A DNA stretch of 33,850 bases from an uncultured Bdellovibrionales bacterium (GTDB taxonomy: Bacteria > Bdellovibrionota > Bdellovibrionia > Bdellovibrionales > Bdellovibrionaceae), in assembly GCA_903926205.1 (NCBI GenBank), contig CAIYID010000017.1, forward strand, positions 1 to 33,850, in the 5' to 3' direction. A program made the position numbers and the translations under genes. Below the pieces are notes generated by a model. That model did no database searches, had not been told where the DNA came from, and saw nothing but the letters and a program-made list of their open reading frames with translations. Shown here piece by piece: positions 1,773 to 32,330 of the stretch. The stretch's first letter is position 1, and every line of letters starts with the position of its first letter.

Positions 1773-2573
1773 TTATAGATTTTTTTTTAAATAACTAAGC
1801 ATGCAATTTTTCCAGGTGACATATGTTGTTCGCCTCCATCTTTCATAGAGGAGAACTCCTGAATGAGGTGGTTTGTCTAAATCAAATTCAAAAACTTCTG
1901 TGAGGTAAATTTGACGAAAAAAGCTGTTAAAAATAAAGTCAGGGTATAATCCCAACCACGACTTAGCTTGAGAAGGATAAAAATAAGGAATCAAAAGTGT
2001 TCGCAAAAAATCCTTAAGACTTCTTTTGATTGCAATCAATTTTGTCTGACTAGTTTTCGGATTTAGAATCGGCTTTCGAACTCGAAAGAATCGCAATTTG
2101 GTATCAGCGCCATTGTAACACCAATATTGAAATAGGCGGGCGCTATAAAATTGTGAAAGGCGATAGCCCAAGCAGAAGGCCGTATCATGGTCGTGGTGGC
2201 CACCCTCGTAGGCGGGTGCAATAACTGAATCAATTGTGAGGTTTGAAAATTTTGATTGAATCGATGATTCAAGCTTTTCCAATTGATACATCAGATGATT
2301 ATCAAAAACTTGAAATTCTTGTCCTAAAAAGAAAATATTTTCATTCGCGACGCCTAAAGAATTTAAGAAATTTTGACTTTCTCTCTGGCGTCGATGGGCC
2401 ATTTTAAGTTCAGAGTTCGTAGTTAAAAATAAGCAAAGCGGCTTTATCCCTTTTTTTAGATCTTCTCTTAACTTTTCAAAAACCATGGCCTCATCATCTT
2501 GGTGAGGAAATAAATAGAGATTGGCTTTGATTTTCGTATCTATTGTCGTGCCTTTGACTAAGTTATAAGTCAT
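1773..2573 (-). CDS. PIG-L (LmbE-like) family deacetylase
   Basis: Protein of 266 residues. The PHQDDE motif at residues 23-28 and the EGGHHDHD segment at about 123-130 are the zinc-binding and catalytic signature of PIG-L/LmbE enzymes, which remove N-acetyl groups from GlcNAc-type sugars or related amides. It is the last gene of a five-gene operon, and its ATG overlaps the end of the GNAT gene by 11 bases, so translation is probably coupled. An acetyltransferase beside a deacetylase suggests exchange of an N-acyl group on one sugar residue; that is inference. The substrate cannot be read from sequence. No signal peptide is evident, so a cytoplasmic location is likely. The length is normal for the family. 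Confidence 0.85.
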   Translation of the reverse strand: MTYNLVKGTTIDTKIKANLYLFPHQDDEAMVFEKLREDLKKGIKPLCLFLTTNSELKMAHRRQRESQNFLNSLGVANENIFFLGQEFQVFDNHLMYQLEKLESSIQSKFSNLTIDSVIAPAYEGGHHDHDTAFCLGYRLSQFYSARLFQYWCYNGADTKLRFFRVRKPILNPKTSQTKLIAIKRSLKDFLRTLLIPYFYPSQAKSWLGLYPDFIFNSFFRQIYLTEVFEFDLDKPPHSGVLLYERWRRTTYVTWKNCMLSYLKKNL

Positions 2574-3636
2574 CGGAGTCGATCCACATTAAATGCCATT
2601 TTGATTCGTCCTTGAAAACTTGCTTATTTAGCTGAGAATTCAAAATTTTAAAAATAATTGAAAAAACCGCGTGAGAGCGTACGAAGCCATTTTCTAAAAA
2701 ACGATATTTTCTCCGGATATAAGGACTGGCCATAGTCACAAGTAAATCACAGTCGGATTTTGCTAGTTGGTAGAGGTAAATAAAAAGATTTTTTAGCCCG
2801 CGCTGATGAGAATTTAAAATCATCAAATCTAAAATGGCTAAACTAGGTATTTCTTGTAGAAGAACTTTTCTGGTGATTGCTAAGCCAACCATCTCATTAT
2901 TTTTGGACAATTTCACGAACTGATATTCAGTTCCTGGAGCACCAGTTCTCCAAGCAAGAAAGGCTTTGTTTTTATTAAGAAAAATTTCTTGTTCATCTGA
3001 CCAAAGTTTAAAAAAAGAATCATAGTCATTGTCCTGCAGAAATGAACCGCGGTTTAAAATTGATGTCTGATAATTCGCGCAAGAAAAACAATTAAATAAA
3101 AAATTATATTGTCGGAGCAGGAAATTAAAAATGATCGAGAGCTTTTTGAGCGGCCCAAGCTTAGTAAATAAAAAATTAAGCTTTACCATCCGTAAGTACA
3201 TTGGCTGCTGAAAGGCGATAAACCAACCGACTTTGAGATGGCCAGGAATGACTTCGGGACGAATGGGGTAGCCAGAGACAAAATCGATTTTATGTTCAGC
3301 TAAATTTTCCGTCGCATAACGACCAAGCTTTGTGAATATACCAGCACCACGATACCCAGGGTGGGTCATGACATCGCAAACCATTCCGCAAGTAAGTTTT
3401 TGATTTTTAACTGTATAATTGAATGGCAGGGCAGCGTAGTAGCCGACCAAATCAGTTCCATCAGTTGCCGAGTACTCATAAGAACTTGGGATGGCCGGAA
3501 ACTTTTGAAATTTCCAGTTGTAATGATCTTCGGACTCTATTGCTGACCCTGCATTTTCAGGAAAGCAAATTGAAAAAAGGCTGCGCTGGGCCTCGTAAAA
3601 TTGAGCTCTGACAAAGGTTTGAAATTTAAGTTCCAA
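2563..3636 (-). CDS. GNAT-family N-acetyltransferase
   Basis: Protein of 357 residues. The segment CDVMTHPGYRGAGIFTKLG near residue 90 matches the acyl-CoA binding turn of the GNAT fold (R/Q-x-x-G-x-G/A, here RGAGIF). The C-terminal half resembles a second GNAT-like domain, as in larger sugar or peptidyl acyltransferases. The start is a TTG directly after the stop of the upstream SDR; a strong GGAGGA eight bases before it, inside the SDR's 3' end, supports this choice. It overlaps the PIG-L deacetylase by 11 bases. The likely role is acylation of an amino sugar, possibly the amine exposed by the neighbouring deacetylase. The exact donor and acceptor are unknown. Confidence 0.75.
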   Translation of the reverse strand: MELKFQTFVRAQFYEAQRSLFSICFPENAGSAIESEDHYNWKFQKFPAIPSSYEYSATDGTDLVGYYAALPFNYTVKNQKLTCGMVCDVMTHPGYRGAGIFTKLGRYATENLAEHKIDFVSGYPIRPEVIPGHLKVGWFIAFQQPMYLRMVKLNFLFTKLGPLKKLSIIFNFLLRQYNFLFNCFSCANYQTSILNRGSFLQDNDYDSFFKLWSDEQEIFLNKNKAFLAWRTGAPGTEYQFVKLSKNNEMVGLAITRKVLLQEIPSLAILDLMILNSHQRGLKNLFIYLYQLAKSDCDLLVTMASPYIRRKYRFLENGFVRSHAVFSIIFKILNSQLNKQVFKDESKWHLMWIDSDDL

Positions 3637-4368
3637 CTAGTTTTGTCCTCCGTTGAGTCCAAGAACTTGCCCTGTCATAAAGGAGGCCTCAGGAGAAATA
3701 AGGTATTTAATCAAGGCGCCAATGTCTTCTTTAAGCCCAAACCGTCCCGCTGGAATTCGAGCCTTAATTTGGGTTTGAAGTTCAGAGGAGACATCGTTAA
3801 TAAGGCCGTAATTAAAATAGCCTAAGGCGACCGCGTTAACGGTGATATTTTTATTCGCTAATTCAAGAGCCAAGGATTTTGTCAGTCCGATGAGACCCGC
3901 TTTAGCTGCGGCATAGTGACTAGCGCCAATGACGCCAGTTTGGCCAACAATGCTGGTGAAATTAACAATGCGGCCCCATTTTTGATCCCGCATGAAAGGA
4001 ATAAATTCCCTTGAACATAAAAAAGAAGATAAAAGATTATTGTCGATCACTTTTCGGAATTCTTCCAAAGTCATCTTCCAAGACATGGCATTGGTTGACA
4101 GACCAGCAACATTTAACAAAGTGCTAACAAGGCCAAGCTTATTTTCAATCGCTAAGCGTAAATCTTTAACAGCTTTTTCGCTTGTTAAGTCGGCATGAAA
4201 AATATATTTCTCCGGATCCAAATCAAATCTCTTTAAGAGGGGTTTAATTTCCAGGGCCGAGGACCTAAAATGAAAAGCAATATTTCGGTGATTGTGTTCT
4301 AAGAGGTACTCTGCGAGAGCTTTTCCAATGCCGCCGTTTGAGCCCGTGATTAATATGACATTATTCAT
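3637..4368 (-). CDS. Short-chain dehydrogenase/reductase (FabG-like)
   Basis: Classical SDR of 243 residues. The N-terminal TGSNGGIGKA (residues 8-17) is the NAD(P)-binding glycine motif, NVAG (residues 86-89) is the structural motif, and the catalytic Ser139, Tyr152 and Lys156 (YAAAK) are all present. The C-terminus MTGQVLGLNGGQ is typical of the FabG group. It overlaps the upstream membrane protein by 8 bases and abuts the GNAT gene, so it is translated within the operon. The family reduces keto groups on acyl carriers or sugars; given the neighbours, a role in making or modifying a sugar or its acyl decoration is likely, but the substrate is unknown. Confidence 0.85.
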   Translation of the reverse strand: MNNVILITGSNGGIGKALAEYLLEHNHRNIAFHFRSSALEIKPLLKRFDLDPEKYIFHADLTSEKAVKDLRLAIENKLGLVSTLLNVAGLSTNAMSWKMTLEEFRKVIDNNLLSSFLCSREFIPFMRDQKWGRIVNFTSIVGQTGVIGASHYAAAKAGLIGLTKSLALELANKNITVNAVALGYFNYGLINDVSSELQTQIKARIPAGRFGLKEDIGALIKYLISPEASFMTGQVLGLNGGQN

Positions 4369-6163
4369 TTGGAACTCCTATTTGATAATCAATTTTTTTC
4401 AATTTAATTAGTTCTTGATCCGTGTGTTGCACTTGAAAGAGGCCTTCTTGCTGTTTTTCAAACAAGGCCCCGTAATCCTTCCACAAAGAACCACCGTCTT
4501 TTGCTACCAGAATGTAATCATAATTATTAATTGAAGTAGCAAATTCATTCAAAGGAACTTTGTGCGTCCATACGTCGGAGGAAGAAGATGGCTCTCCAAG
4601 TGAAGAAGAATCGCAAGATATTAGTCTTGGCATGAGTTCGTATCTCATCATCAGACATTCTAAGCCGGTTGAATATTGCCAAATAAAATAAACTTTGGCG
4701 TTTGGTGGTAATATTGTTCGTAAGCCTTCTGCCTGTTTTTGGATCTCTGCTCTGTTGGTGATTTTAAAGCACGTCGTTTTTCTTTTATAAATGTCATAGC
4801 TGATCGGAGCGAGGAAAATGACTGAAAGTGCATAAGAAAAATTTTGAGACCAGGATCGATTTTTTAACAACTCTTGTGCTTGTAGTATCCATTGAAAAGT
4901 AAAGAATAATACCCAGGAAAGAGTGATTGTTTCGAAATAACGATCAAAACTTGCAAGTGACTTTGCTTCATATTCTCCGAAAATAAATCGATAACAGAAG
5001 GCCAAAAAAATAAAATAACAAAGAATGGAAAAGAAACTATAGGCAAAAAATCTCTTATTCAATTTTCTGAAGATCTTAAAATGAAGAGCTTCGAAAAGCA
5101 AAATGCCGACAAATAAGAACTTAGTAAATTCAGAAAGACAGGCCCTTTCAAACATCTGTGGTAACACTTCTAAAAAGAGACGATCGCTTTTAAAATTTAA
5201 AAGAACTTCAATAATTCTTGGTAGCAAGGATGTATTCTGTTGAAGTACCACAGAAATAGCAGTGTGAGCGAGATAATTGTTCCAACTGATTTTTAAGATA
5301 AAAATGATAAAAAAACTAAGGCTACCTAGGAGTATGAGTTTTGAAGTTTTAGCTTGTTTAAAGCCCCATTCGGCCAGCCAAATGACAAGAGCTAATGATG
5401 AAAATAATACTCCGGTGTGTTTCGTCAGACATAACATGATAAGTGATACCAGTAAAAGTATTGAAGAGGATTTAAAATCAGTCAGACACAAGCTTAAAAG
5501 TGCACTGACAAAAAAGATAGATAGGTCATGATCCACTGACAAGGTAAAGAGTCCCCCTGCTTTTTCGGAAAAGACAAAATAGAAAATCAGTGCGAATAAG
5601 AAAAAAATTATTTGCTTGTTGATCGATTTGGTTTTGTCTTGCGTGATTACCACGGCAGTAGCGCAGAAGTAGAAAAAGGAAATGAAATTAGCAGCAGCGG
5701 CATAGGAGGAACCCTCCTGAGAGGGATCATTGGGGCTTAGTAGCGATAACCATAAAGAAATTCCTGGGATGTAGCTGGCTCCGACGTCGATATGACTGTT
5801 TGTCGGCAATCCAGCTGTCAGTTTTAAATTTTTTAGACTGACGGCCCAATGGGAAAAGTCATCCCAATCATGAAGTTCAATGGACTGGGCAAAAAAAGTT
5901 AATATTCCTAGAATAAGAAAAATAAAGAAATCGAATGAATTGAGATAAATCTTTTTTTTGTAAAATTGATAGGCGACAATTCCTGCCGAGACACCAAAAA
6001 TTATAAACTTTGAAACCCAGAAAAAATTAAAAATAGCGAGAAAATAAATTCCGCAAGTTAGCAAGGCTAGCATTTGCAAGGCATTGAGATATGATTTGCT
6101 AGGATCAGCTTTTTCGCCTGTAGAAAGCCTGAGTAAAAGAAAAAATGAAAAACTTAATAGCAA
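4361..6163 (-). CDS. GT-C-like polytopic membrane glycosyltransferase
   Basis: Large membrane protein of 600 residues with about ten to twelve hydrophobic segments and a soluble C-terminal tail of about 130 residues. The first periplasmic loop carries an acidic DWDDFSHW motif near residue 110, followed by Y-I-P-G, an arrangement seen in GT-C enzymes that use polyprenyl-phosphate sugars. The start is a TTG with AAGGA seven bases upstream, located in the 11-base gap after the GT2 gene. Pairing with that GT2, which has two C-terminal membrane helices, suggests a GtrB/ArnC-ArnT-like scheme: the GT2 makes a lipid-phosphate sugar and this protein transfers it in the periplasm. Acceptor and sugar are unknown. 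The family call rests on topology and one motif. Confidence 0.6.
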   Translation of the reverse strand: MLLSFSFFLLLRLSTGEKADPSKSYLNALQMLALLTCGIYFLAIFNFFWVSKFIIFGVSAGIVAYQFYKKKIYLNSFDFFIFLILGILTFFAQSIELHDWDDFSHWAVSLKNLKLTAGLPTNSHIDVGASYIPGISLWLSLLSPNDPSQEGSSYAAAANFISFFYFCATAVVITQDKTKSINKQIIFFLFALIFYFVFSEKAGGLFTLSVDHDLSIFFVSALLSLCLTDFKSSSILLLVSLIMLCLTKHTGVLFSSLALVIWLAEWGFKQAKTSKLILLGSLSFFIIFILKISWNNYLAHTAISVVLQQNTSLLPRIIEVLLNFKSDRLFLEVLPQMFERACLSEFTKFLFVGILLFEALHFKIFRKLNKRFFAYSFFSILCYFIFLAFCYRFIFGEYEAKSLASFDRYFETITLSWVLFFTFQWILQAQELLKNRSWSQNFSYALSVIFLAPISYDIYKRKTTCFKITNRAEIQKQAEGLRTILPPNAKVYFIWQYSTGLECLMMRYELMPRLISCDSSSLGEPSSSSDVWTHKVPLNEFATSINNYDYILVAKDGGSLWKDYGALFEKQQEGLFQVQHTDQELIKLKKIDYQIGVPNE

Positions 6164-6174
6164 GTCATCGTCCT

Positions 6175-7149
6175 TTAGAGTTCTTTGCTTAAAGGTTTAA
6201 GGGGAACATTGGACATATCGTGGGTTAAAAAAGATAAAAACAATTGAAAGCCAAGAATAATAGTCAGGGTCGAAATCATGACCGTTCCTGTGGGAGTGGA
6301 AGTTTGATTTTGCATATTTTCCATCCAATGATAAGCCCCAAAGATGAATCCAAAACCAATAAACATTATGGAAAGAACAAGTTCGACACTAGCCACGCTG
6401 AAGTCTCTTAAGAAATAATTATAAAAAATTCTTTTTAATAAATTTTTCATGTGCCGTCGAAAAAATGGAAAAATAATCCGAGTTATTTTTAAGTTACTTT
6501 TTTCTTCGCCGTAATGGGCATCCATAGGAAGATCCAGCACGACGGCCCGGGAAATATTAAGTCTAAAGAGAAGATCAGACTCAAAGAAGTAGTCTTTAGC
6601 TATTTTATCAAGCGGCAGCGCTTTAAGCACGCTTTGTTCGATAGCAATAAAGCCGTTGGTCGGATCCATGATTTGGTAGTAGCCACTAGATAGTTTTGAA
6701 ATAAAAGACAGACTGGCATTCCCAATAAGTCTTACGGTCGGCATTTCGGTTAAAGAATATAAATTAAAGAAGCGGTTGCCTTTCACATAATCCGCTCGTT
6801 TTTCAATCAAAGGTGCGATGAGCTTGGGAATTAATTGCGGATTCATTTGGCCGTCACCATCCACTTTGACAACAATGTCTGCATTGAGCTCAAGGGCTTT
6901 CTTGAAGCCGGAAATCATGGCCCCACCTACCCCTTGATTTTGAGGATGAAAGACGACAGTCACCCGTGGGTCTTTGCATTTAGATTTTACAAATTCACCG
7001 GTGTGCTCGGGGCAAGCATCGTCGACAACAATAATGGATTGGACAGATTCACCAATTTTTTCAATGACTGATAAAATTTGTTTTTTTACGCGGTAACTAG
7101 GAATGATGACGGCCACGGTGGGCACCTGACTATAAGTTGTAATTGTCAT
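6175..7149 (-). CDS. GT2 glycosyltransferase, polyprenyl-phosphate sugar synthase type
   Basis: Protein of 324 residues. The N-terminal GT-A domain begins with VAVIIPSYR, then VVDDACPEHTG near residue 42, and the metal-binding VDGDGQM (Asp97, Asp99) that is typical of dolichol-phosphate-mannose-synthase-like enzymes. Two hydrophobic helices close the protein (about residues 250-275 and 287-308), as in GtrB and ArnC. It probably moves a sugar from a nucleotide to undecaprenyl phosphate on the cytoplasmic face, feeding the GT-C-like protein just downstream. It is the first gene of the five-gene minus-strand operon. The start at 7149 gives a complete domain. Confidence 0.82.
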   Translation of the reverse strand: MTITTYSQVPTVAVIIPSYRVKKQILSVIEKIGESVQSIIVVDDACPEHTGEFVKSKCKDPRVTVVFHPQNQGVGGAMISGFKKALELNADIVVKVDGDGQMNPQLIPKLIAPLIEKRADYVKGNRFFNLYSLTEMPTVRLIGNASLSFISKLSSGYYQIMDPTNGFIAIEQSVLKALPLDKIAKDYFFESDLLFRLNISRAVVLDLPMDAHYGEEKSNLKITRIIFPFFRRHMKNLLKRIFYNYFLRDFSVASVELVLSIMFIGFGFIFGAYHWMENMQNQTSTPTGTVMISTLTIILGFQLFLSFLTHDMSNVPLKPLSKEL

Positions 7150-7533
7150 TCTTCGGATTAACTCTTAGGTGCCTTTTTAAGTCAATTGTAAACCCGACTT
7201 AAATACATATGAATTCCGAGAAATTCGATAAATCAGTAAATGGTCGAAAAGAGAAACATAGCAGCATAACTTCATTGTGCTTAAAGTCTCTATCTATGCT
7301 TTGAATTTCTGCTCTGAACTCCGCTTTTTTGAACTTCTCTGATTTATCATTGCCATATGTTTAATATGAAATCGAATCCAGTTGGAGACAGTAAATTTAC
7401 TGACGCTCAGTCATTTTTCAACTGAGGTGAGAACTTCTCTTCAAACTGGGGAAACAATAAGTTTTTGCCTTGCCTATATCGGAATAAAACATCAAACTTT
7501 AAAATTGAAAAATTTCAAAAAACAGGTGTTCAA
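7150..7533. other. Intergenic region between divergent operons
   Basis: This 384-base A+T-rich stretch separates the minus-strand GT2 operon from the plus-strand GMC-oxidoreductase operon, so promoters for both are expected here. No convincing -35/-10 pair at a sensible distance, terminator or known RNA was recognised. Frames reading through 7382-7533 are open but lack a good start and recognisable content. Confidence 0.5.
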
Positions 7534-7947
7534 ATGTCCCCAGCAAGCCCTAAAGAAGAAAATCTCACCAGAGAAGTGGAATATATTTTTAAAAATTTAT
7601 TCCCGAAAAAGGAACTTACTCAAGACATAAAAATTCAATATACACTCTTTGGTAATAAACTTTGCAATACGGGCAATAATGTCAAAATCCGTAAAATAAT
7701 TGATCACAAACTGGATGTGGAAGCCATTGAATTTTTTTTAAGAATCCGTGATCGTGAAAATATTTTAACTCAAAAAATTCATGCTTTGATTTACTTAATT
7801 GAAGTTAAAAAGGATTTCTACGACGAATTTTACGTAGAGAAAGACTTTCTTCTAAAAGGTTTATTTACTCTGATTTATTTTACTCTTAGAAGTATCTATA
7901 AATTTTTTAAAGGATTTATTCAGGTCAGGTTGTATGGAATTATTTGA
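7534..7947 (+). CDS. Small protein of unknown function preceding the GMC oxidoreductase
   Basis: Predicted 137-residue protein, not recognised. The ATG at 7534 is preferred over a possible start at 7465 because AGGTG lies just upstream of it and the reading frame before it has no clear signal. The N-terminal half is charged; the middle has KIHALIYLIE and a FYDEFYVEKDFLLKG segment; the C-terminal part is hydrophobic and aromatic (FTLIYFTLRSIYKFF), perhaps a membrane-associated helix. The gene overlaps the oxidoreductase start by 14 bases, so the two are probably co-translated. By position it might be an accessory subunit, as GMC-type dehydrogenases can have a small partner, but no sequence evidence proves it. 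Confidence 0.6.
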   Translation: MSPASPKEENLTREVEYIFKNLFPKKELTQDIKIQYTLFGNKLCNTGNNVKIRKIIDHKLDVEAIEFFLRIRDRENILTQKIHALIYLIEVKKDFYDEFYVEKDFLLKGLFTLIYFTLRSIYKFFKGFIQVRLYGII

Positions 7948-9508
7948 TGTCATAATAGTTGGCTCTGGCCCTTCAGCAGTTTCAGCGCTGGCGAGTCTTA
8001 AAAATAAGAGGGTTTTAGTTCTTGATGTTGGTATTGTTAGCGATTCAGTGACGCACTCACTTAATGACTCTATTTCCAGTTTAAAAAAGAAAAATGAAAT
8101 TAATTTTTCTGAGGTTATAGGGGATAACTTAGAGAGCCTAAACAATATCAATCACGAATACCTGAGCCCAAAAGTAAAAGCGCCATTGATGAGATATATT
8201 TCAAATAAATTTAACGAATTTAATAAATTTAAAACAAAAAACTTTTTTGTCCTAGGATCCTACGCTAAAGGCGGACTTTCAAACGCTTGGGGCGGCGGCT
8301 CGATGAGGTATACGAATGAGGATTTAGCAGGATTTCCAATTAGCTATGCTGATTTAAAAGAATATTATGATCTGTTAACTGATAAAATCGGGATCGCTGG
8401 AAAAAATGATGATTTACAGGATGAGTTTTTTGCAGAAAAAAATCTTCTCCCTGCGCCTAAATTAAACTTTCTCGCAGAAGCTCTGCTTAAAAAGTACAAA
8501 AAAAAGCTGCGATTCTTTCACAAGAACAATTTATTTATTGGTTTTCCGCGTTCGGCTTATATTACCTCGACGAAAAAAAATCGTGAAATTTATGACTATA
8601 AAGGTTTGGAATTTTTTAAACCATATACAAATTCTATTTATAATTCAAAATTGTTTCTAGAAGAAATTATTAATGAGAATGCAAATATTACTTACGTCCA
8701 CAATAAAATTGTCACTACTTTTGCGGAAAAAGAAAATAGGATTGATGTCATTGCAATGGATATCGAATCCAAATCAAATACAATTTTTTCTACCAAAAGA
8801 CTTATTTTGGCAGCCGGCTGCCTAAATACTTCCCGAATTGTTCTTAATAGTTTTAAGGATTACGAAACCCAACTACCTATGCTAGACAACCTAGTCACCT
8901 ATATTCCTTTTGTAAATTTTAAATTTATCGGCAAAAAAGAAGATAATGAGTTCATTCCCCCTCAACTTATATTATTAACCAAAGATAGTAAAAATAAATA
9001 CCTGTGCTCAATGTATAAGTTAAATGCTACTTTGTGCGGCGATTACCTTATGGATTTTCCTCTTTCCATTAAGGGAACTTTAAGCGCGGTCAAATACTTG
9101 GTGCCTTCTATTCTTATCATGCAGGTTTTTTATCCCGATCATCAGAAATCTAAAAACTTTCTAAAATTAACTAAAGATGGTGTGATAGAGATTAGTTATG
9201 AACAGGAAGAAAAAAGAGGATCTATTGAAAAGAAGATTATCTCTTCTTTTCGAAAATTGGGATTTTATTCTTTAAGTTTTCTAGTAAAAAAATTGCAGCC
9301 TGGAAATAGCTTTCATTATTCTGGAACCCTTCCTATGAAGAAAACTCCTTCAAAGTTTCAAACTGACTCTGAATGCAGACTCTTTGGAACCAAAAATATC
9401 TTTATTGCCGATGGTTCAGTTTTTCCAGTTTTACCTGCAAAGAATAACACCTTTACAATTATGGCCAATGCCATGAGGATCGGTGAAATAGTAAATAAAT
9501 CATTATGA
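7934..9508 (+). CDS. GMC-family FAD-dependent oxidoreductase
   Basis: Protein of 524 residues. It opens with a Rossmann FAD-binding motif (VIIVGSGPSAV, residues 6-16). Around residue 113 is GGLSNAWGGGSMRY, the GMC-type loop near the flavin, and the C-terminus has FHYSGTLPM, then FIADGSVFP and a final N-x-T-FTIMANA block, all characteristic of the GMC oxidoreductase C-terminal domain; the active-site His is expected in the FHYSG segment. Such proteins occur in some polysaccharide clusters, where they oxidise a sugar hydroxyl, but no specific reaction is known for this one. It overlaps the small upstream gene by 14 bases and the next SDR by 4, forming one operon. Codon use is strikingly A-rich compared with genes after 16 kb. 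Confidence 0.82.
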   Translation: MELFDVIIVGSGPSAVSALASLKNKRVLVLDVGIVSDSVTHSLNDSISSLKKKNEINFSEVIGDNLESLNNINHEYLSPKVKAPLMRYISNKFNEFNKFKTKNFFVLGSYAKGGLSNAWGGGSMRYTNEDLAGFPISYADLKEYYDLLTDKIGIAGKNDDLQDEFFAEKNLLPAPKLNFLAEALLKKYKKKLRFFHKNNLFIGFPRSAYITSTKKNREIYDYKGLEFFKPYTNSIYNSKLFLEEIINENANITYVHNKIVTTFAEKENRIDVIAMDIESKSNTIFSTKRLILAAGCLNTSRIVLNSFKDYETQLPMLDNLVTYIPFVNFKFIGKKEDNEFIPPQLILLTKDSKNKYLCSMYKLNATLCGDYLMDFPLSIKGTLSAVKYLVPSILIMQVFYPDHQKSKNFLKLTKDGVIEISYEQEEKRGSIEKKIISSFRKLGFYSLSFLVKKLQPGNSFHYSGTLPMKKTPSKFQTDSECRLFGTKNIFIADGSVFPVLPAKNNTFTIMANAMRIGEIVNKSL

Positions 9509-10356
9509 AGACCACGACCATCTTTATCACTGGAATTAATAGTTTCGTTGGCAGCAATCTCGCTTTGTATTTAAAAAAGAAGGGTTATATTGTTAAGGGA
9601 TCCTTGTCTGATCTTTCTAAGGCGCATTCAGTCAAAAATATCACAAATGTTCTTACTGAAATTAAGTTGGGTTCAGATATCTCCACTCAGTCCATTCCAG
9701 ATGGTATTGATGTTTTAATCTATGCCGCCCATGATAAAAATGAGGCAAAAAATAATATAGAGAGCAATAAAATGCTCTATGAATTAGCTGATAAAAAAGG
9801 TTGTCGCTATCATATTTTCATAAGCTCTATTTCCGCTGATCCGAGCAATACGACAGACTATGGCCGAGTGAAGAGAAATTTAGAAAATTTTTTTAGAAAA
9901 AAAAAGAATACTGCCATTATTCGTCCGGGTCTTGTAATTGGAGCTGGAGGGCTCTATTCCAGCATGGAAAGTTATATTAAAAAAAACCACTTTATTCCAC
10001 TGCCCGATGGAGGAAGATATAAAATGGCAATTATAGAGATGACGGAATTGTCAAAAGCAATAGAAATGCTTATCGAAAAACTAGAACCTGGATTTTTTAA
10101 TTTGTATCAGACTCAATTGGTATCATTAAAGGATATAGTAAGAAAAATTGCACTACTTCACGAAAAAAAAATTCTAATAGTAAATATACCTGTTAATTTA
10201 GCGATGGTTTTTTTTGGCTTATTTAAAAAAATATTAAATTTATTAAGAATAGAAAATAAATTTAGCATTGATAGCATTGCTGGATACAAGCTTTATCAGG
10301 ATCTTCAATTACCCCCGAGTGATCTTAAAAAACTAATTGAGGTTAAAATACAATGA
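9505..10356 (+). CDS. Extended SDR (NAD-dependent epimerase/dehydratase family)
   Basis: Protein of 283 residues. The N-terminal ITGINSFVGSNLA is the nucleotide-binding motif of extended SDRs, followed by a conserved YAAHD and a serine block (ISSISA). The catalytic Tyr and Lys appear in DYGRVKRNLE. A hydrophobic stretch near residue 230 (NLAMVFFGLFKKILNLL) may be membrane-associated. Family members epimerise, dehydrate or reduce nucleotide or lipid-linked sugars. It starts with ATGA overlapping the end of the GMC oxidoreductase gene and overlaps the following methyltransferase by 4 bases. A plausible scheme is oxidation by the GMC enzyme followed by reduction here, that is, epimerisation of one sugar position; this is inference. 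Confidence 0.75.
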   Translation: MKTTTIFITGINSFVGSNLALYLKKKGYIVKGSLSDLSKAHSVKNITNVLTEIKLGSDISTQSIPDGIDVLIYAAHDKNEAKNNIESNKMLYELADKKGCRYHIFISSISADPSNTTDYGRVKRNLENFFRKKKNTAIIRPGLVIGAGGLYSSMESYIKKNHFIPLPDGGRYKMAIIEMTELSKAIEMLIEKLEPGFFNLYQTQLVSLKDIVRKIALLHEKKILIVNIPVNLAMVFFGLFKKILNLLRIENKFSIDSIAGYKLYQDLQLPPSDLKKLIEVKIQ

Positions 10357-11141
10357 TTCAACTTATTATTAACTTACTTCGTGAAAAAGAAATAAGCACT
10401 ATCAACTTAGACTCTCATGAACGACTCGCTTTACATGAAAAAATGCTAGAAAAAAGAAAAATGATTTCTGGAGTTTTTAAAGAATTTTACGATACCTGTA
10501 GCTTTTATAATAAGCATTTTTTTTCAGGCAAAGGCATTGAGCTCGAGATCGGATCTGGAGTTGGACAAATTAAAAAATATTATCCCAATGTGATAACTAG
10601 CGAGGTGATAGATTCCCCTCTTGTTGACCGGGTTATTGATGCGAAGAAGATGAATCTAGAAGATAATTCAGTCAGAGTAATTTATGGCATGAACTGCTTT
10701 CATCATATATCAGAACCTCGTAAGTTTTTTAAAGAATGTGAACGAGTGTTGCAATTGGGTGGTGGTGTTGTTTTGATTGATCCGTACTATGGTTTTTTGT
10801 CCAACCTCTTTTATAAAAGAGCTTTTAAAACTGAATTTTTTGATAAAACACAAGCTTCATGGGAGACCGAAACCAGAGTTATGCTTGATGCTAATCAAGC
10901 TCTTTCGTATGTTGTGTTTATAAGAGATAGAGAGATTTTTTTAAAAGAATTTCCCCATTTGGAAATCATTGAAACGAAGGTTTTAAATAATTACGTTAGA
11001 TATGTTTGTTCTGGAGGATTAAATTTTAAGCAATTGCTTCCTAATTTTTTTATTCCTGTTTTAAAAGCCTTAGAAGCCTTAATGATTCCAGTTAATAAGT
11101 TTTTTGGGTTACATCATGTGATGGTATTGAGAAAGAAGTAG
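10353..11141 (+). CDS. Class I SAM-dependent methyltransferase
   Basis: Protein of 262 residues. Motif I is LEIGSGVGQIKKYYP near residue 64, the acidic residue for the SAM ribose follows at about residue 80, and the later segments NCFHHISEPRKFFKE and GGGVVLIDPYYG fit the methyltransferase-11 (UbiE-like) fold. The likely acceptor is a sugar or lipid-linked glycan in the polysaccharide. It is the last gene of the four-gene operon, and its stop lies one base from the end of the convergent RfbJ-like gene. Confidence 0.78.
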   Translation: MIQLIINLLREKEISTINLDSHERLALHEKMLEKRKMISGVFKEFYDTCSFYNKHFFSGKGIELEIGSGVGQIKKYYPNVITSEVIDSPLVDRVIDAKKMNLEDNSVRVIYGMNCFHHISEPRKFFKECERVLQLGGGVVLIDPYYGFLSNLFYKRAFKTEFFDKTQASWETETRVMLDANQALSYVVFIRDREIFLKEFPHLEIIETKVLNNYVRYVCSGGLNFKQLLPNFFIPVLKALEALMIPVNKFFGLHHVMVLRKK

Positions 11142-12862: not shown

Positions 12863-13525
12863 TCAGTAGGCTTCGATTGGATCTTGATGCAATAGTGGCA
12901 TGTAGCCTGATTGATTTTTAAAAATCATATGGAGCACTTCAACCCCGGCCAAAATTATTTTTGCTGAATTGAATTTCTTAAATCCCAGCATCCCACGAAT
13001 GTGCATCTTTATGAAACTGTGGTCTTGCTCAACAATATTATTCAAATATTTTCACTGTCTGATTTCAATTTGGTGGCGGTTCTCATTGTTAATCGATTCA
13101 AGTCCAGCAATGTTTGTTCCTGACTTGTCCAAAGTGGCTTTGAGTGGAGCGCCACTCGTGCGAATGGCTTTCTTGAAGAACCGTTTCGCGGCCTTCAGAT
13201 CTCGCTTTGCCGTCAGCAAGAAATCAACTGTGTTGCCGCGCTTGTCAACTGCCTGATAAAGATAGCGATCTTCGCCAGCTATTTTGACATAGGTCTCATC
13301 GACGCGCGAAGAACCGTTCACTGGGAGCTTGTATTTGCGGAACTTTGATTCCAGTTCAGGACCAAACTTCATGATCCATCGATAGATCGACATGTGTGAA
13401 ACGCGTACGCCGCGATCAGGCATGAGCTCCTCAACTTGACGAAGGCTCACTGCATACTTGAAGTAAAAGAAGAGCGCACGCCAGATAATTTCCATTTGGA
13501 ATTGCATGCGTTTTCTGGTGAACAA
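12863..13525 (-). pseudogene. IS6-family DDE transposase with an internal stop
   Basis: In one frame, 221 codons encode an IS6-type transposase: an N-terminal helix-turn-helix region with VSLRQVEELMPDRGV and HMSIYRWIMKFGPE, then the catalytic residues in VDETYVKI (first Asp), TLDKSG (second Asp) and NNIVEQDH (Glu). A single TGA at 13052-13054 interrupts the frame between IEIRQ and KYLNNIVEQD; a one-base change to TGC or TGG would restore it. The protein is otherwise of usual length. All three catalytic residues survive, so the inactivation looks recent. Confidence 0.85.
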
Positions 13526-15708: not shown

Positions 15709-15927
15709 ATGAACTTTTTCAAAAAAATAAATAAAAAATTTAAACTAATAAATAAAATTAAAAATTCCGTCGCCGATATTTTTTGTTGTTTTTTTCTTCT
15801 GACTTTTCCAAACAAATGGTCCACGCATATTTCTTCAAAATTTAATAGTTTATTCTACACTGTGTCTATAAAAGATAAAAAACTGAATATACTTTCAAAT
15901 TCGGATCTTCTTCTTTATCGATCTAAA
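15709..15927 (+). pseudogene. 5' fragment of a probable FkbM-like methyltransferase
   Basis: About 73 codons from the ATG at 15709 encode a lysine-rich N-terminus, a hydrophobic patch (FCCFFLLTFP), and end in DLLLYRSK. The last residues resemble the stretch just before the TKEP motif of FkbM-family sugar O-methyltransferases, but the motif itself has been cut off. The frame then enters the IS3 fragment and becomes meaningless. The family assignment is weak because only the variable N-terminus survives. Confidence 0.4.
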
Positions 15928-16199
15928 ACGTGCATTTTCTTGCTCAAGCTCTTTCAATCGTTTTGCTTGGTCGGCTCGCATTCCGCCAAACTCAGCTTTC
16001 CATCGCGACAACGTCACTGGCGTGACTCCGATTTTTCGGGCGGTTTCTTCTTGGCTTGCGCCTTTGCTTTGTTCAATTTCTGCGGTTCGCAGATGTTGGA
16101 TGATTTCCTCAGGTGTATATCTCTTTCGTACCATGATCGGGTCCTTTCTTGGCCCAGATCTTATCACAGAACCTGGACCGGTTTAAGACCGGCAGGTCA
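15928..16199 (-). mobile_element. IS3-family (IS407-like) fragment with orfA
   Basis: The minus strand from the ATG at 16134 encodes an IS3 OrfA: YTPEEIIQHLRTAEIEQSKG, a helix-turn-helix in ETARKIGVTPVTLSRWKAEF, and a leucine-zipper-like KRLKELEQENAR. AGGA about eight bases upstream supports the start. Similarity ends after ENAR at about 15928, so the C-terminus of OrfA and all of OrfB are missing. The outer end reads TGACCTGCCGG from 16199 inward, matching the TG start typical of IS407-type ends. It joins the FkbM-like fragment on the left and wecB on the right, so it marks a deletion. Confidence 0.75.
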
Positions 16200-17033
16200 A
16201 TACGAATTCTTGTCTGGCGGTTATTGCCGCAAAAAGAAGAAAGATTCCGATTTTCCATATGGAAGCGGGTAATCGCAGTTTTGATCAACGCGTGCCCGAG
16301 GAAATCAATCGCAAGATTGTCGATCATTTGGCCGATATCAATTTGCCATTGTCAGAACATGCTCGGGGTTATTTAATTCGTGAAGGTTTACCACCAGAGC
16401 GCGTGATCAAAATTGGGACCTGCATGAATGAGGTTCTGAAATATTACATGCCAAAAATTGATGAAAGCCAAATTCTGACCGAGCTGAAAGTGCAAAAGGG
16501 CGAGTACATTTTAGTCAGCCTTCATCGTCAAGAAAACGTGGATTACGAAGAGAATCTTCGCAATATCGTGAAATCACTCGATCTGCTTGCGGAAAAATTT
16601 AAAAAAGAAAGTTTTTGTTTCCACTCATCCGCGCACACGAAAAAGAATGGAAGCTTTGAATTTGAAATCAAACAATAGTCTGGTTGAGTATTTAAAACCC
16701 TTCGGTTTCTTGGATTATAATAAGCTGCAAAAGCATGCTTACTGTGTGGCCTCTGATCGCGGCACCATCACGGAAGAGGCCTGTCTGCTTGAAGTGCCTG
16801 CAATTACGATTCGTAATGCGCATGAGCGTCCTGAAGGCATGGACGTGTGTACGATCATCATGTCCGGCACCAATCCAGAAGATGTGATCAGTGCCGTGAA
16901 TATTGCTGTGAATACGAAGCGTGCACCGATGATTCCTGATTATGCTGTGACCAATGCTTCGGAGCATGTGGTGAAGCTCATTCAAAGCGATCAACATTAT
17001 GTTGATCCTTTTGTTTGGCGAAAGATGATTTAA
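16200..17033 (+). pseudogene. wecB: UDP-N-acetylglucosamine 2-epimerase, truncated and frameshifted
   Basis: WecB interconverts UDP-GlcNAc and UDP-ManNAc. Coding sense begins directly at the IS3 end: TNSCLAVIAAKRRKIPIFHM, then EAGNRSFDQRVPEEINRKIV, so roughly the first 90-100 residues are missing. A single extra A in the run near 16601-16606 shifts the frame after LAEKF; the second frame continues KKKVFVSTHPRTRKRMEAL and then SDRGTITEEACLLEVPAITIR and ERPEGMD, both typical WecB blocks. With one A fewer the two halves read as one protein to 17033. The gene has no start codon of its own and cannot make the normal enzyme. Confidence 0.9.
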
Positions 17034-21357: not shown

Positions 21358-22087
21358 AGTAAAAGAATTTTATTTGAATGGAACCTATTTTGAAAATAAT
21401 CCAAGTTGGGATTCTGGTGATGCTCAGTGGAAGTTTCCAAAATTACAACGCGCATTTTTAAAAATTCCAATAAACGTTGGTGATAAAATAATTGAAATTG
21501 GCTGCGGCGGTGGAGAGCTTTTAAAGCTGTTTGCAAAAAAATATCAAAACTTGCAATTTGAGGGTTGGGATATTGCCCCACAGGCGGAGCGTTTTTGGAA
21601 AACAGATATAAAAAATATTCAGTTTCAAGTTGGTGATTTTATTTTAAATGAACGGAATTCAAAATCCAGAGCAATGTTATTAATTGATGTTCTCGAGCAT
21701 GTTGCAGATCCTGTTAACTTTCTAAGTAGTTTAAGAGATAAGACAGATTATATTTTGATTCATTTGCCATTGGATATGACAAGTATCAATGCTCTTCTCG
21801 ACGGACGATTAATTGAAATGCGATTGAAAGTCGGCCATATTCATTACTTCACACGTCGTCTTGGATTGCAGATGATTAAGGATGCTGGCTTTGAAATTCT
21901 TGAATCTTCCTTCACTCATGCATGGGTTGATTCGCCTCAATTAACGCCAGTTGGGCGGGTATTCAGATTACTGCGCTCAATGATCTCATTTTTTTCACCA
22001 GATTTGAACGCTCGATTATTAGGTGGAGAAACTTTAATTGTTTTGTGTCGTCCTTTGCCAAAGTTACTCAGAAGAGGGGAAGTATAA
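21350..22087 (+). CDS. Class I SAM-dependent methyltransferase
   Basis: Protein of 245 residues from the ATG at 21350, which overlaps the end of the upstream glycosyltransferase by 8 bases; a longer frame upstream is not needed. Motif I is [19 protein letters not shown] near residue 45, an acidic residue follows in [10 protein letters not shown], and [12 protein letters not shown] is the typical post-II segment. A histidine-rich [20 protein letters not shown] follows, as in the Methyltransf_23 type found in sugar clusters. It probably methylates a sugar or a glycan end. It sits between the colitose genes and rfbF. Confidence 0.75.
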
Positions 22088-22088
22088 T

Positions 22089-22859
22089 ATGAAGGCAGTG
22101 ATATTGGCGGGTGGCTTTGGGACTCGAATTAGCGAGGAAAGTATTTATCGACCCAAACCGATGGTCGAAATCTCCGGAAAACCCATTCTTTGGCATATTC
22201 TGAAAATTTATTCTGCTCATGGAATTAATGATTTTATTATCTGCTGCGGTTACAAGGGATATTTTATTAAGGAGTATTTTGCGAATTACTTCCTCCATAA
22301 TTCAAACGTCACTTTTGATATTCAAAAAAATGAAATGAAAGTCCATAAAACAAATTCAGAAGCCTGGAGAATTACTGTTGCAGATACTGGGGAAAATACG
22401 ATGACGGGGGGCCGGATTAAACGTATTTCAGAATATTTAGAGCCCAATGAAGATTTTTGTCTTACCTATGGTGATGGAGTGAGCGACGTCAATATCCGCG
22501 AGCTCATTCAGTTCCACAAAAAACATGGTAAAATTGCGACAGTCACGGCCGTTCAAATTCCCGGGCGATTTGGGGTCCTCAATTTAAGTGGCAGTCAGGT
22601 GACCAGTTTCGTCGAAAAACCACATGGCGATGGCGCCTATATTAACGGTGGTTTTTTCGTTTTAAAGCCAAAGGCTCTTGAATATATTCCAGATGAGTCG
22701 ACAGTTTGGGAGAAAGAGCCTCTTGAAAAATTAGCAAAAGAAAATCAATTGCAGGCATATCAACCTGATGGTTTTTGGCAACCGATGGACACATTACGAG
22801 ACAAAAATATGCTGGAAGATTTATGGAAATCGGGGAAGGCGCCATGGCAGAAGTGGTAA
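22089..22859 (+). CDS. rfbF: Glucose-1-phosphate cytidylyltransferase
   Basis: Makes CDP-glucose from glucose-1-phosphate and CTP. The 256-residue protein has the standard RfbF length when started at the ATG at 22089, after AGAGGGGA. It begins with [20 protein letters not shown], then [33 protein letters not shown], and [10 protein letters not shown] with the metal-binding Asp, and ends near [11 protein letters not shown]. It overlaps rfbG by 16 bases, so the two enzymes are made together. No other cytidylyltransferase was seen. Confidence 0.96.
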
Positions 22860-23920
22860 GTTCATTTTGGAAAAATAAAAAAGTTTTTTTGACTGGTCAT
22901 ACTGGCTTTAAAGGGAGTTGGCTTTCGCTTTGGCTTCAAAATATGGGGGCTGAGTTAACAGGCTATGCACTTGCACCTGCGACGAATCCGTCCTTATTTG
23001 CGGATGCCAAACTTGAGAAAAATATGAAATCGGTGATTGGTGATATTCGGAATTATGATCTTTTGAAAAAGACGCTCACTGAATTTAAGCCCGAAATTGT
23101 TATTCATATGGCCGCTCAACCCCTTGTTCGGTATTCCTATCAAAATCCGATTGAAACATATGCGACAAACGTGATGGGTACAGTTCACTTGCTGGATTCA
23201 GTTCGCTTTTCCCCTTCTGTTCGTGCTGTTGTGAACGTCACAACGGATAAGTGTTATGAAAACAAAGAGTGGATTTGGCCCTATCGTGAAAATGAAAGCC
23301 TTGGTGGATATGATCCCTATAGTAACAGTAAGGCTTGTTCTGAACTTGTGACTTCCGCGTACCGACAGTCTTATTTTCATCCAGAGAAGTATTCGGAACA
23401 TCAGGTGGCAATCGCCTCTGCGCGGGCCGGAAATGTTATTGGTGGTGGGGATTGGTCTACTGATCGCTTGATCCCTGATATCTTAAGGGCGCTGAAGAGC
23501 AGCGCAAATTTACAAATTCGAAATCCGCGAGCAATTCGTCCTTGGCAGCATGTTCTTGAACCACTCAGTGGGTATTTGATCCTCGCTCAGAATTTACATC
23601 AGCAAGGTGCGCGATTCTCTGAAGCATTTAATTTTGGTCCAGCACAAGAAGACGTCAAAGATGTCGAATGGATCACGAAAAAACTCCTCAGTGAATTGGG
23701 GAGTTCCAAGAAAATTGAGATTGTGAAGAGTGATCTTCATGAGGCTCAATATTTAAGTTTGGATTGTGCGAAGGCACAGGCGGTATTGGGATGGAAACCT
23801 AAGTGGAATGTGGGTCTGGCCCTGAGTAAGATTGCTGAATGGAATCGGGCCTACGATGAAAATCCAGTAGGCATTGATAAGATGACCTTAAAGCAAATCG
23901 AAGAGTATATTCGAAACTAA
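22844..23920 (+). CDS. rfbG: CDP-glucose 4,6-dehydratase
   Basis: Converts CDP-glucose to CDP-4-keto-6-deoxyglucose with NAD. The 358-residue protein is standard length when started at the ATG at 22844, where GGGGAAGG lies five to twelve bases upstream. Evidence: [17 protein letters not shown] at the N-terminus, [28 protein letters not shown], catalytic Tyr and Lys in [12 protein letters not shown], and [12 protein letters not shown]. Its 3' end overlaps the convergent ThDP-enzyme gene by 4 bases. The 3-deoxygenation enzymes E1 and E3 that usually follow in dideoxyhexose pathways are not in the window. Confidence 0.96.
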
Positions 23921-25671
23921 GTACTTTCAATTTCGACAGGCTTATAGGAAGGCTCCATTTGGTGGAGTGGCCTTCCAAAGGCTGTTTTGGGATAGATATT
24001 TGTTGAAGAATCGATCATGACTTGTAAGAGGCAGGGGTTGTTCTTCAGCTCTTTCGAAAACATCCACTTCAGAGCAGAATCCACCTCAGAAGTTTTTGCG
24101 ACGGTTTTTGATTGAATTCCGTATGCTGTCGCAACTTTTTCAAAATCAGGAGCAGAGTAACCCCAGACTGTCGATTGATATCTTGATTCAAAATAACTAT
24201 CTTGGAACTGCTTGATCATTCCAAGGCTTTGATTATTCATGACGATAATTTTAATCGGAATATTATTCCTGTAGATCGTTTGAAGTTCTTGAATATTTAA
24301 TTGCATACTTCCATCGCCAACAATAACGACGAATCCACTCTTCAGAGCAAGGGCTCCTCCAATCGAAGCGGGAAGGGAATATCCCATCGCACCCATTCCT
24401 CCAGAGGTGATGAAATATTGTCCTTTGTGAAGTTCGAGCGATTGAGCTGCCCACATTTGATGAGCCCCAACATCCACAGAATAAGAGAGGTAAGGATTAT
24501 ATTTTGAAACTGCGTGCATCAAGACATTGGGATTAATTTGCTCTGGAGATTTTAATGTAAGCTCTTTCGTATCGTGCGACTGAGATTTGTTTTTTGAGAT
24601 CTCAGTCAACCATTCAGGATATTGCAAAGAAATCTTCTTCTGTTGCAAATACTGACAGAACTGATTCAGAAAAAATTGCAGTTCTGCGTGAACCTTGATT
24701 GTTGATTGAACCCTATTATTCAGCTCGCCCTCCTCACAATCGACTTGTATGATTTTTCGATTCGAAAAGAAGCCAACGTCAGCACCTGTTTGTCGAATAT
24801 CCAAACGAGCCCCCAAAACCAAAAGCAGATCAGAATCCGCAATAGCTTGATTGGCCCATCGATTTCCGTACGTGCCAAAAAAGCCAACACGAAGTGGGTT
24901 TTCATAGGGAAGAACGTCAAGTCCCAAGAGTGAAAGACAAACGGGAATTTGAAGATTCGAGATCATCTCCAGAAATAATTCAGCAGACTGCGAAGCGCGA
25001 AGACCTCGACCGGCAAGTATTAGTGGTTTTTTTGCGCTCTGAATTAAAGTCATGATCTTTTCAAAATCAAGATCTGTTGTTTCGGCAGGTTTTGCTTGGG
25101 GACTTTTTCCCTCAAGAGCAGGAATGAGCGCTCGTTGAATATTCATTGGAATATCAATCAGAACGGGGCCTGGTCGTCCTGACATTGCGATTTGAAATGC
25201 CTTATCAAGAATTCTTGGGAATTGATTTGCATCGGAAACTAAATAGGCCGCCTTGGTGATCGGCTTTGCCATACTGATGATGTCAGTTTCTTGAAAGCCG
25301 AGTTGTCGAATGGAGTTGTTTTTTTTAATTTCGTGAGTATTGACCTGCCCAGTAATAAAAATGGCGGGTACAGAGTCAAAATAACATGAACCAATACCCG
25401 TTAAGAGGTTCGTGGCACCAGGGCCGCTTGTCGCTAGTGCAACGCCTGGTTTATTTGAAAGTCGTCCGTAGGCTTCTGCCGCAAAAGAAGCGCCTTGTTC
25501 GTGATGCATTGAAATGATTTTGATTTTTTTCTTTTGTGAAAGGGAATCAAGAATATGAGTAATCATTCCACCGGAAAGCTCGAAGACATGGGTGATTTCT
25601 TTTTGATGTAAATAGTCGGCTAAATAATCTGACAGTTTGATCTCATTTTTGAGTGTGGTCATTTTCTTCAT
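23917..25671 (-). CDS. Thiamine-diphosphate-dependent enzyme, acetolactate-synthase-like (YerE-like candidate)
   Basis: Protein of 584 residues with the three-domain pyruvate-decarboxylase / acetolactate-synthase build. The cofactor-activating glutamate is in MHHEQGASFAAEAYGR near residue 58, GPGATNLLTG follows, and the C-terminal ThDP motif starts at GDGSMQLNIQELQT and ends in the usual double Asn (VMNNQS). The N-terminal VFELSGGMITHILDSL and the block RQLGFQETDIISM occur in a subgroup seen in polysaccharide clusters. Known relatives of this fold include YerE, which adds a two-carbon unit from pyruvate to a CDP-4-keto sugar in yersiniose synthesis. Position next to rfbG and absence of a regulatory ilvH-type gene favour a sugar role over branched-chain amino acid synthesis. 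The start could also be the ATG at 25662. Confidence 0.75.
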   Translation of the reverse strand: MKKMTTLKNEIKLSDYLADYLHQKEITHVFELSGGMITHILDSLSQKKKIKIISMHHEQGASFAAEAYGRLSNKPGVALATSGPGATNLLTGIGSCYFDSVPAIFITGQVNTHEIKKNNSIRQLGFQETDIISMAKPITKAAYLVSDANQFPRILDKAFQIAMSGRPGPVLIDIPMNIQRALIPALEGKSPQAKPAETTDLDFEKIMTLIQSAKKPLILAGRGLRASQSAELFLEMISNLQIPVCLSLLGLDVLPYENPLRVGFFGTYGNRWANQAIADSDLLLVLGARLDIRQTGADVGFFSNRKIIQVDCEEGELNNRVQSTIKVHAELQFFLNQFCQYLQQKKISLQYPEWLTEISKNKSQSHDTKELTLKSPEQINPNVLMHAVSKYNPYLSYSVDVGAHQMWAAQSLELHKGQYFITSGGMGAMGYSLPASIGGALALKSGFVVIVGDGSMQLNIQELQTIYRNNIPIKIIVMNNQSLGMIKQFQDSYFESRYQSTVWGYSAPDFEKVATAYGIQSKTVAKTSEVDSALKWMFSKELKNNPCLLQVMIDSSTNIYPKTAFGRPLHQMEPSYKPVEIEST

Positions 25672-31335: not shown

Positions 31336-32330
31336 TCATCCTACTTTTTGCTCAAAATCAATTTCAATTTCTTGTTTTGTAATTTCTCGAAGAGCCACCC
31401 ATAGTGCCGGTATTCCGCGGAACCCCTTGATCCTTCGCATTCGCTTTTCACTTTGAAGGCAAAACGTAGCGAGCCATCTTTGAAAATGTTCCGAGTTTTT
31501 CCAGTGCTTCACACGACGCATGTCTTCTTCTAAAAGTGAGTTCAAAGATTCAATCGGATTCGTTGTTGAAAAAATCTTCCTCAATTCCCGCGATAATTTC
31601 AGCTCATGCATCGCCAGCAAATCATCCTTGGCTTCCAAATAACTCTCTAGAGCAGATTTGTTCAAATCTCGAAGAATAGATTCCAATTGATCTGATAAAA
31701 TTTTTGCTTCATTCATGTCCCTTGCATCCCGCAGAGCCCAAAACGGACCCTTGGCTTTGTGTGAGCTATCGCCCAAAGATTTCTCGATGTTGCGCCACTT
31801 GTGGACATGGCAACGGATCCTGATGGCTCGTCTTTTCAATTTATCATCACATTGATATTTCAGATTTAGGGCCTTATTCAAGCCACTGCCGCCATCAACG
31901 ATGAACAAAAGACCTTCCTCTGGCAGACCTCGCTTTTCCAAATCATTGAGTAAACTCAAACATGATTGGTGATTCTCAGAACTTGCTTGATAAATTCCTA
32001 AAACATATTTTTATCCATTCGCAGCTACGCCCAAAGCAATAATGACCCGTAATTTGAAAACCTCTTCCCATCAATGAAAACGGCACGGATATCGAGCACC
32101 TGGAGCTTTCGACTTTACAATTCTTCGATCTTTTTCGCAGTGACATTGATCCATTTTCTGGACACCGAACTTTTTGAGACTCCAAAACTTGATGTGATCT
32201 TCTGGAGTCCCCTTTGGTAATCTCGTTGAGAGACTTTCTTCAGGCCTTCGGCAAAAACTTGATCTTGAAACAGGCTCACTCTTTTCGTGAAGATTTAATG
32301 CTACGACACGACATTCCATTATTCTCTTTA
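31336..32330 (-). pseudogene. IS256-family (mutator-type) transposase, decayed
   Basis: Conserved blocks remain in the right order on the minus strand: VFAEGLKKVSQRDYQRGL, SSFGVSKSSVSRKW, the first catalytic Asp in VFIDGKRF, then IIALGVAANG, VLGIYQASSENHQSCLSLLN, the second Asp in FIVDGGSGLNKAL, CHVHKWRN, and the third residue in TTNPIESLNSLL. Lesions are a TAA at 32115-32117, a frameshift near 32053-32062 and a TAA at 32011-32013; the part before VFAEGLKK also seems shifted. The last open part runs from 31959 to the stop at 31336. It lies between the polymerase and FdtA-FdtB and is certainly inactive. Confidence 0.85.

Follow-up and report, generated by a model that had tools for sequence, protein, structure and literature searches.

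A predicted glycosylation operon of an uncultured Bdellovibrionales bacterium with a deacetylase-acyltransferase pair that may edit a lipid-linked sugar donor

The window analyzed here, the 33,850 bases that make up the entire contig CAIYID010000017.1, belongs to the 3.34-Mb genome of an uncultured Bdellovibrionales bacterium and carries a surface-glycan locus. Five of its genes form a tight operon on the reverse strand that encodes a GT2 glycosyltransferase, a large membrane protein resembling GT-C transferases, a short-chain dehydrogenase/reductase (SDR), a GNAT acyltransferase, and a PIG-L deacetylase:

6175..7149, reverse strand: GT2, predicted polyprenyl-phosphate sugar synthase of the GtrB/DPMS (dolichol-phosphate mannose synthase) type with two C-terminal transmembrane helices (PF00535, 1.7e-21).
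4361..6163, reverse strand: GT-C-like multi-transmembrane protein of 600 amino acids with a C-terminal soluble domain, TTG start (named from context and motif only).
3637..4368, reverse strand: SDR resembling FabG/acetoacetyl-CoA reductase (PF13561, 1.1e-46).
2563..3636, reverse strand: GNAT acyltransferase, TTG start (PF13527, 5.7e-16).
1773..2573, reverse strand: PIG-L family de-N-acetylase of the cassette subfamily described below (PF02585, 3.3e-12).

The assignments of GT2, SDR, GNAT, and PIG-L all pass the Pfam cut-offs. From GT2 to PIG-L, the genes are joined by an 11-base gap, an 8-base overlap, no gap, and an 11-base overlap, and both TTG starts are preceded by Shine-Dalgarno-like sequences (AAAGGACGATGACTTG and GGAGGACAAAACTAGTTG). 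An earlier interpretation made from the letters alone (the sequence-only reading) had described a five-gene operon with overlaps and two TTG starts with ribosome binding sites; the open reading frame (ORF) coordinates bear out the ORFs, their order, their starts, and their junctions.

The sole PDB sequence matched by GT2 is the Pyrococcus dolichol-phosphate mannose synthase (1.4e-17), and its two hydrophobic C-terminal segments agree with the GtrB/DPMS-type enzyme of Gtr systems. Relatives were found at 46 to 58% identity. GT2 falls below the cut-off of every named NCBIfam model, scoring 65.8 bits against a cut-off of 325 for AglJ, 49.3 against 370 for PpgS, and 28.4 against 529 for the ArnC type. 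The prediction that GT2 makes a polyprenyl-phosphate sugar is well supported.

One scan of a genome collection with a GT2 alignment yielded 80 named loci, 79 of them non-redundant, onto which gene families were mapped by BLAST, clustering, and profile hidden Markov models (HMMs). A small flippase lies near GT2 in 51 of the 79 (GtrA in 24, an EamA-type protein with four transmembrane segments in 27). Large multi-transmembrane proteins are common neighbors too, and those that were scanned match PMT_2 with DUF7024, DUF7657/7654, DUF2142, or nothing. Gtr-type systems show the same combination of GT2, GtrA or EamA, and a large membrane protein (PMC8035078, PMC11127046).

PIG-L is encoded in 10 of the 79 loci, and in all 10 a GNAT gene is adjacent or one gene away; GNAT occurs alone in a single locus (L038), and 68 loci have neither gene. 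In the loci with the pair, a flippase (GtrA or EamA) and a large protein with many helices are usually encoded as well. The contiguous order GT2-GtrA-GNAT-PIGL-GTC is found in L016 (a contig of a metagenome-assembled genome labeled Klebsiella pneumoniae, a label that we would treat with caution), L039, L046, and L068, and, apart from a confident GtrA, in L062. L065 and L081 have the order GT2-GTC-GNAT-GtrA-PIGL, L072 has GtrA-GNAT-PIGL-GT2, the Haliea locus L036 has GNAT-PIGL-AMP ligase-SDR-GT2-EamA, and L059 is interrupted by the contig end. The GNAT-PIG-L pair is thus a neighbor of GT2 in other phyla, and gene content, order, and this conserved association can be read directly from the loci, as can the active-site motifs given below. 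The exact set of five genes, which the sequence-only reading had treated as a unit that might be conserved, occurs in no other genome examined. A chance neighborhood of the five genes was rejected in view of the recurring GT2-multi-transmembrane and GT2-GNAT-PIG-L associations.

To explain the distribution of the pair on the GT2 tree, 8 changes are required, of which at least 4 fall on well-supported branches, a pattern that suggests repeated gain. GNAT goes with PIG-L in 4 of 4 supported independent comparisons, which are too few for significance and come from a tree whose bootstrap had not settled. The window's GT2 has no resolved position there and is not placed with any one cassette type. 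The membrane protein that adjoins the pair varies in family between loci (c3, c5, c74), which suggests that the pair is part of the donor side of the system. Our searches of the open literature, which leaves subscription journals mostly uncovered, yielded no publication on a GNAT-PIG-L-GtrA set or on such a donor module. A different link between PIG-L and Gtr-like genes is seen at L014:12700-14382, where a PIG-L domain is fused to a second GT2 domain near a GT2-EamA-DUF2142 set; L029 and L060 contain ORFs resembling this fusion, with weak PIG-L scores.

The PIG-L protein of the window scores 166.6 bits against an HMM of the cassette PIG-L proteins built without it, the next background protein reaching 29.5. 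Its metal-site residues H24, D26, D27, H126, and H129 are invariant, and its C-terminal motifs match those of the cassette enzymes. Among 144 genomes of the class, this subfamily is present only in the window's own. A PIG-L search made independently of GT2 found it to be rare in the class of genome G336 (4 of 369 genomes): the gene of G336 belongs to the cassette locus L065 and that of G359 to L059, and in the other two genomes it is near ketosynthase genes. Searches of plasmids and of phages gave no match to a cassette PIG-L. The GNAT gene of the window lies directly before PIG-L, as in the definition of the cassette, and its product scores 49.7 bits against a cassette GNAT HMM likewise built without it; by this comparison its kinship with the cassette GNATs is distant, and it does not clearly belong to their subfamily. 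An AlphaFold2 model of GNAT had a mean pLDDT of 53, with only the N-terminal domain fair.

PIG-L and GNAT both lack transmembrane segments and signal peptides, and in L036 the PIG-L protein starts almost at its active-site strand. The acyl donor of GNATs is cytosolic acyl-CoA. The two soluble enzymes would therefore act in the cytoplasm before flipping, and acyl exchange in the periplasm, which the sequence-only reading had allowed for, is unlikely; we rejected it because both proteins are soluble and free of signal peptides.

FabG-type NCBIfam models give the window SDR about 200 bits, below all the cut-offs shown. Its sole relative inside a cassette is that of Haliea L036, beside an AMP-binding ligase. 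By its distribution the SDR lacks general conservation and lies outside the common cassette core. The ligase and the SDR relative at L036 fit a supply of acyl groups, and an SDR and an AMP-binding ligase would together make a hydroxyacyl donor for GNAT.

Because the 600-amino-acid membrane protein has no match in Pfam, NCBIfam, or the PDB, its GT-C label is one that we infer. A genome-collection scan with this protein alone gave no match, nor did a plasmid search. Within the class, clear relatives occur outside the window's genome in just G057 and G134, and a more distant multi-transmembrane family, c138, is present in G005 and G104. The GT2 relative stands beside the multi-transmembrane relative in G057 and in one locus with it in G134 (L021, the same locus as L008), a Pseudobdellovibrionaceae metagenome-assembled genome of the same order as the host; every time, the GT2 relative adjoins or shares a locus with a multi-transmembrane relative or a c138 member. 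Since these relatives keep GT2, and within the class PIG-L of the cassette subfamily is confined to the window's genome, GT2 and the GT-C-like protein are by this comparison the older pair there, and GNAT-PIG-L is a local addition. Immediately before the GT-C-like gene of G134 there is a gene of the fatty-acid-hydroxylase family, resembling alkylglycerol monooxygenase (L008:4160-5266).

When the GT-C-like protein was compared by profile with the other membrane neighbors of GT2, c138 was the sole match. The two families share the motif WD[DE][FY], whose loop in the window's protein has 57 residues (6 acidic, 2 basic), and, further along, the motif EAxxLxSF[DHE]RY. In GT-C enzymes the motif of DxD type usually sits in a periplasmic loop near the start of the protein. 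These enzymes generally have such a motif, either DxD itself or a modified form (PMC8035078). Motif and context fit the label proposed by the sequence-only reading, for which neither a family match nor a usable model was obtained, and favor a GT-C transferase as the likely identity of the protein.

The interpretation that we favor, at somewhat better than even probability, is that the sugar donor is edited within a Gtr-like, multi-component system of periplasmic glycosylation. On the cytoplasmic side of the membrane, GT2 would take an N-acetylhexosamine (HexNAc) from a nucleotide sugar and attach it to polyprenyl phosphate. PIG-L would then take the N-acetyl group off the lipid-linked sugar, and GNAT would re-acylate the free amine, possibly with a 3-hydroxyacyl group for which the FabG-like SDR would supply the reduction. 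A protein encoded outside the operon would flip the edited lipid sugar, and on the periplasmic side the GT-C-like protein would transfer the sugar to a surface glycan. Knowledge of the families suggests the loading by GT2, the deacetylation of a glycoside of the N-acetylglucosamine (GlcNAc) type by PIG-L, and the acylation of an amine by GNAT; we infer all biochemical function, including which substrates and acyl group are used, in what order the steps run, and what serves as flippase and as acceptor. The recurring cassette of GT2, large membrane protein, GNAT, and PIG-L agrees with a lipid-linked donor being deacetylated and then re-acylated, and in this respect the N-acyl exchange put forward by the sequence-only reading gains support. 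That reading overlooked the usual flippase partner and a divergent gene set, described below.

Several observations weigh against this interpretation. PIG-L relatives scoring about 185 bits also sit in ketosynthase clusters, so the subfamily alone does not prove a donor-editing role. The window GNAT is only 18 to 23% identical to the cassette GNATs and is without their DFDAY end. The Fisher value for the joint occurrence of GNAT and PIG-L (7.6e-12) is descriptive only, as the loci are related and were gathered by one query. AlphaFold2 returned a mean pLDDT of 36 for the GT-C-like protein (two sequences) and no usable model. The genome encodes no GtrA-family protein (PF04138), and EamA matches only proteins of 306 to 315 amino acids on other contigs; these searches did not extend to Wzx- or MATE-type flippases. 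Flippases of those two types are employed by some multi-component systems (PMC8035078, PMC11127046).

Three alternatives were weighed, the foremost being that the substrate of PIG-L and GNAT is a nucleotide sugar or belongs to the neighboring O-polysaccharide pathway as an intermediate, with GT2 and the membrane protein using the finished or another sugar. Several nucleotide-sugar pathways are encoded on the contig, PIG-L relatives occur outside Gtr-like loci, and the window GNAT is only distantly related to those of the cassettes, all of which would agree with it. The pair nevertheless recurs by a polyprenyl-phosphate sugar synthase and is flanked in four loci by GtrA and the GT-C gene, and the characterized PIG-L enzymes act on GlcNAc glycosides (GlcNAc-phosphatidylinositol, GlcNAc-inositol, and GlcNAc-malate); we know of none that acts on nucleotide sugars. 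We consider this alternative unlikely.

NaxD of Francisella deacetylates lipid-linked HexNAc before GT-C transfer, and we know of no re-acylation in the mycobacterial and Francisella galactosamine systems. In an Arn- or NaxD-like arrangement at the window, PIG-L would bare the amine, the sugar would go to lipid A, and GNAT and the SDR would serve another pathway. The ArnC-ArnD-ArnT, Francisella, and mycobacterial galactosamine systems all deacylate a polyprenyl-phosphate sugar before GT-C transfer (PMC12748117, PMC9671496). The presence of GNAT with PIG-L in all 10 cassette loci and the distance of GT2 from the ArnC-type and PpgS cut-offs make such an arrangement improbable. A small probability also falls to the 600-amino-acid protein being a flippase, a polymerase, or something else, with transfer made elsewhere: its lack of a family match, structure match, and usable model, its profile similarity limited to c138, and the absence of a flippase from the operon would allow this, but it holds the position of predicted GT-C proteins beside GT2 elsewhere, its acidic WD[DE] loop and later RY motif fit GT-C enzymes, and a separate Wzy_C protein is encoded at 506-1717.

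Returning to the donor-editing interpretation, a second set of genes runs divergently from the operon on the forward strand:

7465..7947, forward strand: ORF of 160 amino acids heading the divergent block.
7934..9508, forward strand: GMC-type flavin adenine dinucleotide (FAD) oxidoreductase, possible oxidase of a lipid-linked sugar (PF05199, 1.1e-11).
9505..10356, forward strand: SDR resembling NAD-dependent epimerases/reductases, putative partner of GMC (PF01370, 3.4e-06).
10353..11141, forward strand: class I methyltransferase (PF08241, 2.6e-09).

The GMC, SDR, and methyltransferase genes (7934-11141), which diverge from GT2, overlap by 4 bases. The 160-amino-acid ORF has no relative among the surveyed loci. 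The three other families are found with GT2 in G134 and in nine named loci, which come from Pseudomonas, Nitrotoga, Lysobacteraceae, Luteibacter, and Azospirillum; GtrA is present in all nine, as is the SDR with GMC. By these comparisons GMC-SDR-methyltransferase is a second recurrent partner set of GT2, and the window is the only surveyed locus with both sets. Its methyltransferase is 44% identical to the one adjoining GT2 in G134. The FAD motif and the C-terminal His are conserved in the GMC proteins, and at the usual second catalytic position most of them have His, the window's protein Asn; we take the catalytic roles of these positions from general knowledge of GMC enzymes. The lower G+C content of the block (0.32 to 0.33, compared with 0.36 to 0.42 in the five-gene operon) hints at separate origins. 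The oxidase, SDR, and methyltransferase may further alter the same donor. It is possible, if doubtful, that an amino sugar is rebuilt on polyprenyl phosphate, with PIG-L and GNAT exchanging its N-acyl group, GMC and SDR oxidizing or inverting a hydroxyl, and a methyl group being added, to be followed by flipping and periplasmic transfer. Editing of lipid-linked donors would in that case be a modular source of glycan diversity. On a Rhizobium leguminosarum plasmid (L119:7769-10512), a GMC relative follows an SDR gene; its neighbors are a GT2 gene, a gene for a 656-amino-acid hypothetical protein, and HAD/GHMP-kinase genes.

The rest of the glycan locus contains further sugar genes. At 22038-26728, a glucose-1-phosphate cytidylyltransferase and a CDP-glucose 4,6-dehydratase, both above NCBIfam cut-offs, adjoin an acetolactate-synthase-like thiamine pyrophosphate enzyme and an SDR, which recalls branched-sugar (yersiniose-type) synthesis. 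A single ORF at 32362-33729 fuses an FdtA-type sugar isomerase domain to a DegT aminotransferase, as in dTDP-Qui3N/Fuc3N synthesis. A short ORF among overlapping ORFs at 15709-17033 partially matches UDP-GlcNAc 2-epimerase (profile positions 97-220 of 347) and is possibly a broken gene. Transposase genes or fragments of the IS240/IS6, ISL3, and Mutator types lie at 13052-13525, 27849-29441, and 31336-31959.

With a recurrent deacetylase-acyltransferase pair acting on the donor, the N-acyl group of a side-chain sugar could change after lipid loading, without a new nucleotide-sugar pathway or synthase. The authors who described an SDR epimerase in a three-component system were aware of no others in O-polysaccharide side-chain systems (PMC11127046); the GMC-SDR block would add one more candidate. 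Cassettes are present in the culturable Massilia, Cupriavidus, and Pseudomonas, with Massilia sp. Bi118 and Cupriavidus agavae as environmental hosts, which makes the ideas of N-acyl exchange and of GMC-SDR action testable.

The window set is best classified among known systems as a Gtr-like multi-component glycosylation variant whose defining flippase, a small GtrA or EamA/SMR-type protein, was not found in the genome. With the Gtr-type systems (GtrA-GtrB-Gtr*, GtcA-CsbB-YfhO) it has in common a membrane-anchored GT2 that loads, or here is predicted to load, polyprenyl phosphate, and a large membrane protein, in the window probably of the GT-C type (PMC8035078, PMC11127046); its cassette relatives carry GtrA or an EamA four-transmembrane protein, as these systems do, while the window differs by its deacetylase-acyltransferase pair, its SDR, and the lack of GtrA. 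In ArnC-ArnD-ArnT, as is proposed for the window set, a polyprenyl-phosphate sugar is N-deacylated and then moved by a GT-C enzyme (PMC12748117), whereas the window's GT2 is below the ArnC cut-off, its deacylase matches only PIG-L (PF02585) and not an ArnD-type deformylase, and a GNAT that would re-acylate the sugar is present. In the mycobacterial PpgS-Rv3779 system, a lipid-linked HexNAc is deacetylated and the sugar is moved by a GT-C enzyme (PMC9671496); the window's GT2 falls below the PpgS cut-off, and the mycobacterial deacetylase for this step is not known. The GMC-SDR block recalls DprE1/DprE2, where a flavin oxidase and an SDR change a sugar on its lipid carrier, and Citrobacter youngae O2, where an SDR epimerase of a three-component system changes a lipid-carried sugar (PMC11127046); it differs from DprE1/DprE2 in that its oxidase is not of the DprE1 family, the sugar would be loaded by GT2, and the chemistry is putative. 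Finally, GpgS-GpgD-GpgF of Pseudomonas aeruginosa uses phosphatidylglycerol as the substrate, a GT4 enzyme, and a COG3233 deacetylase, without GNAT or GT-C, but resembles the window set in that a glycosyltransferase, a deacetylase, and a predicted flippase act serially on lipid-linked GlcNAc (PMC12713373).

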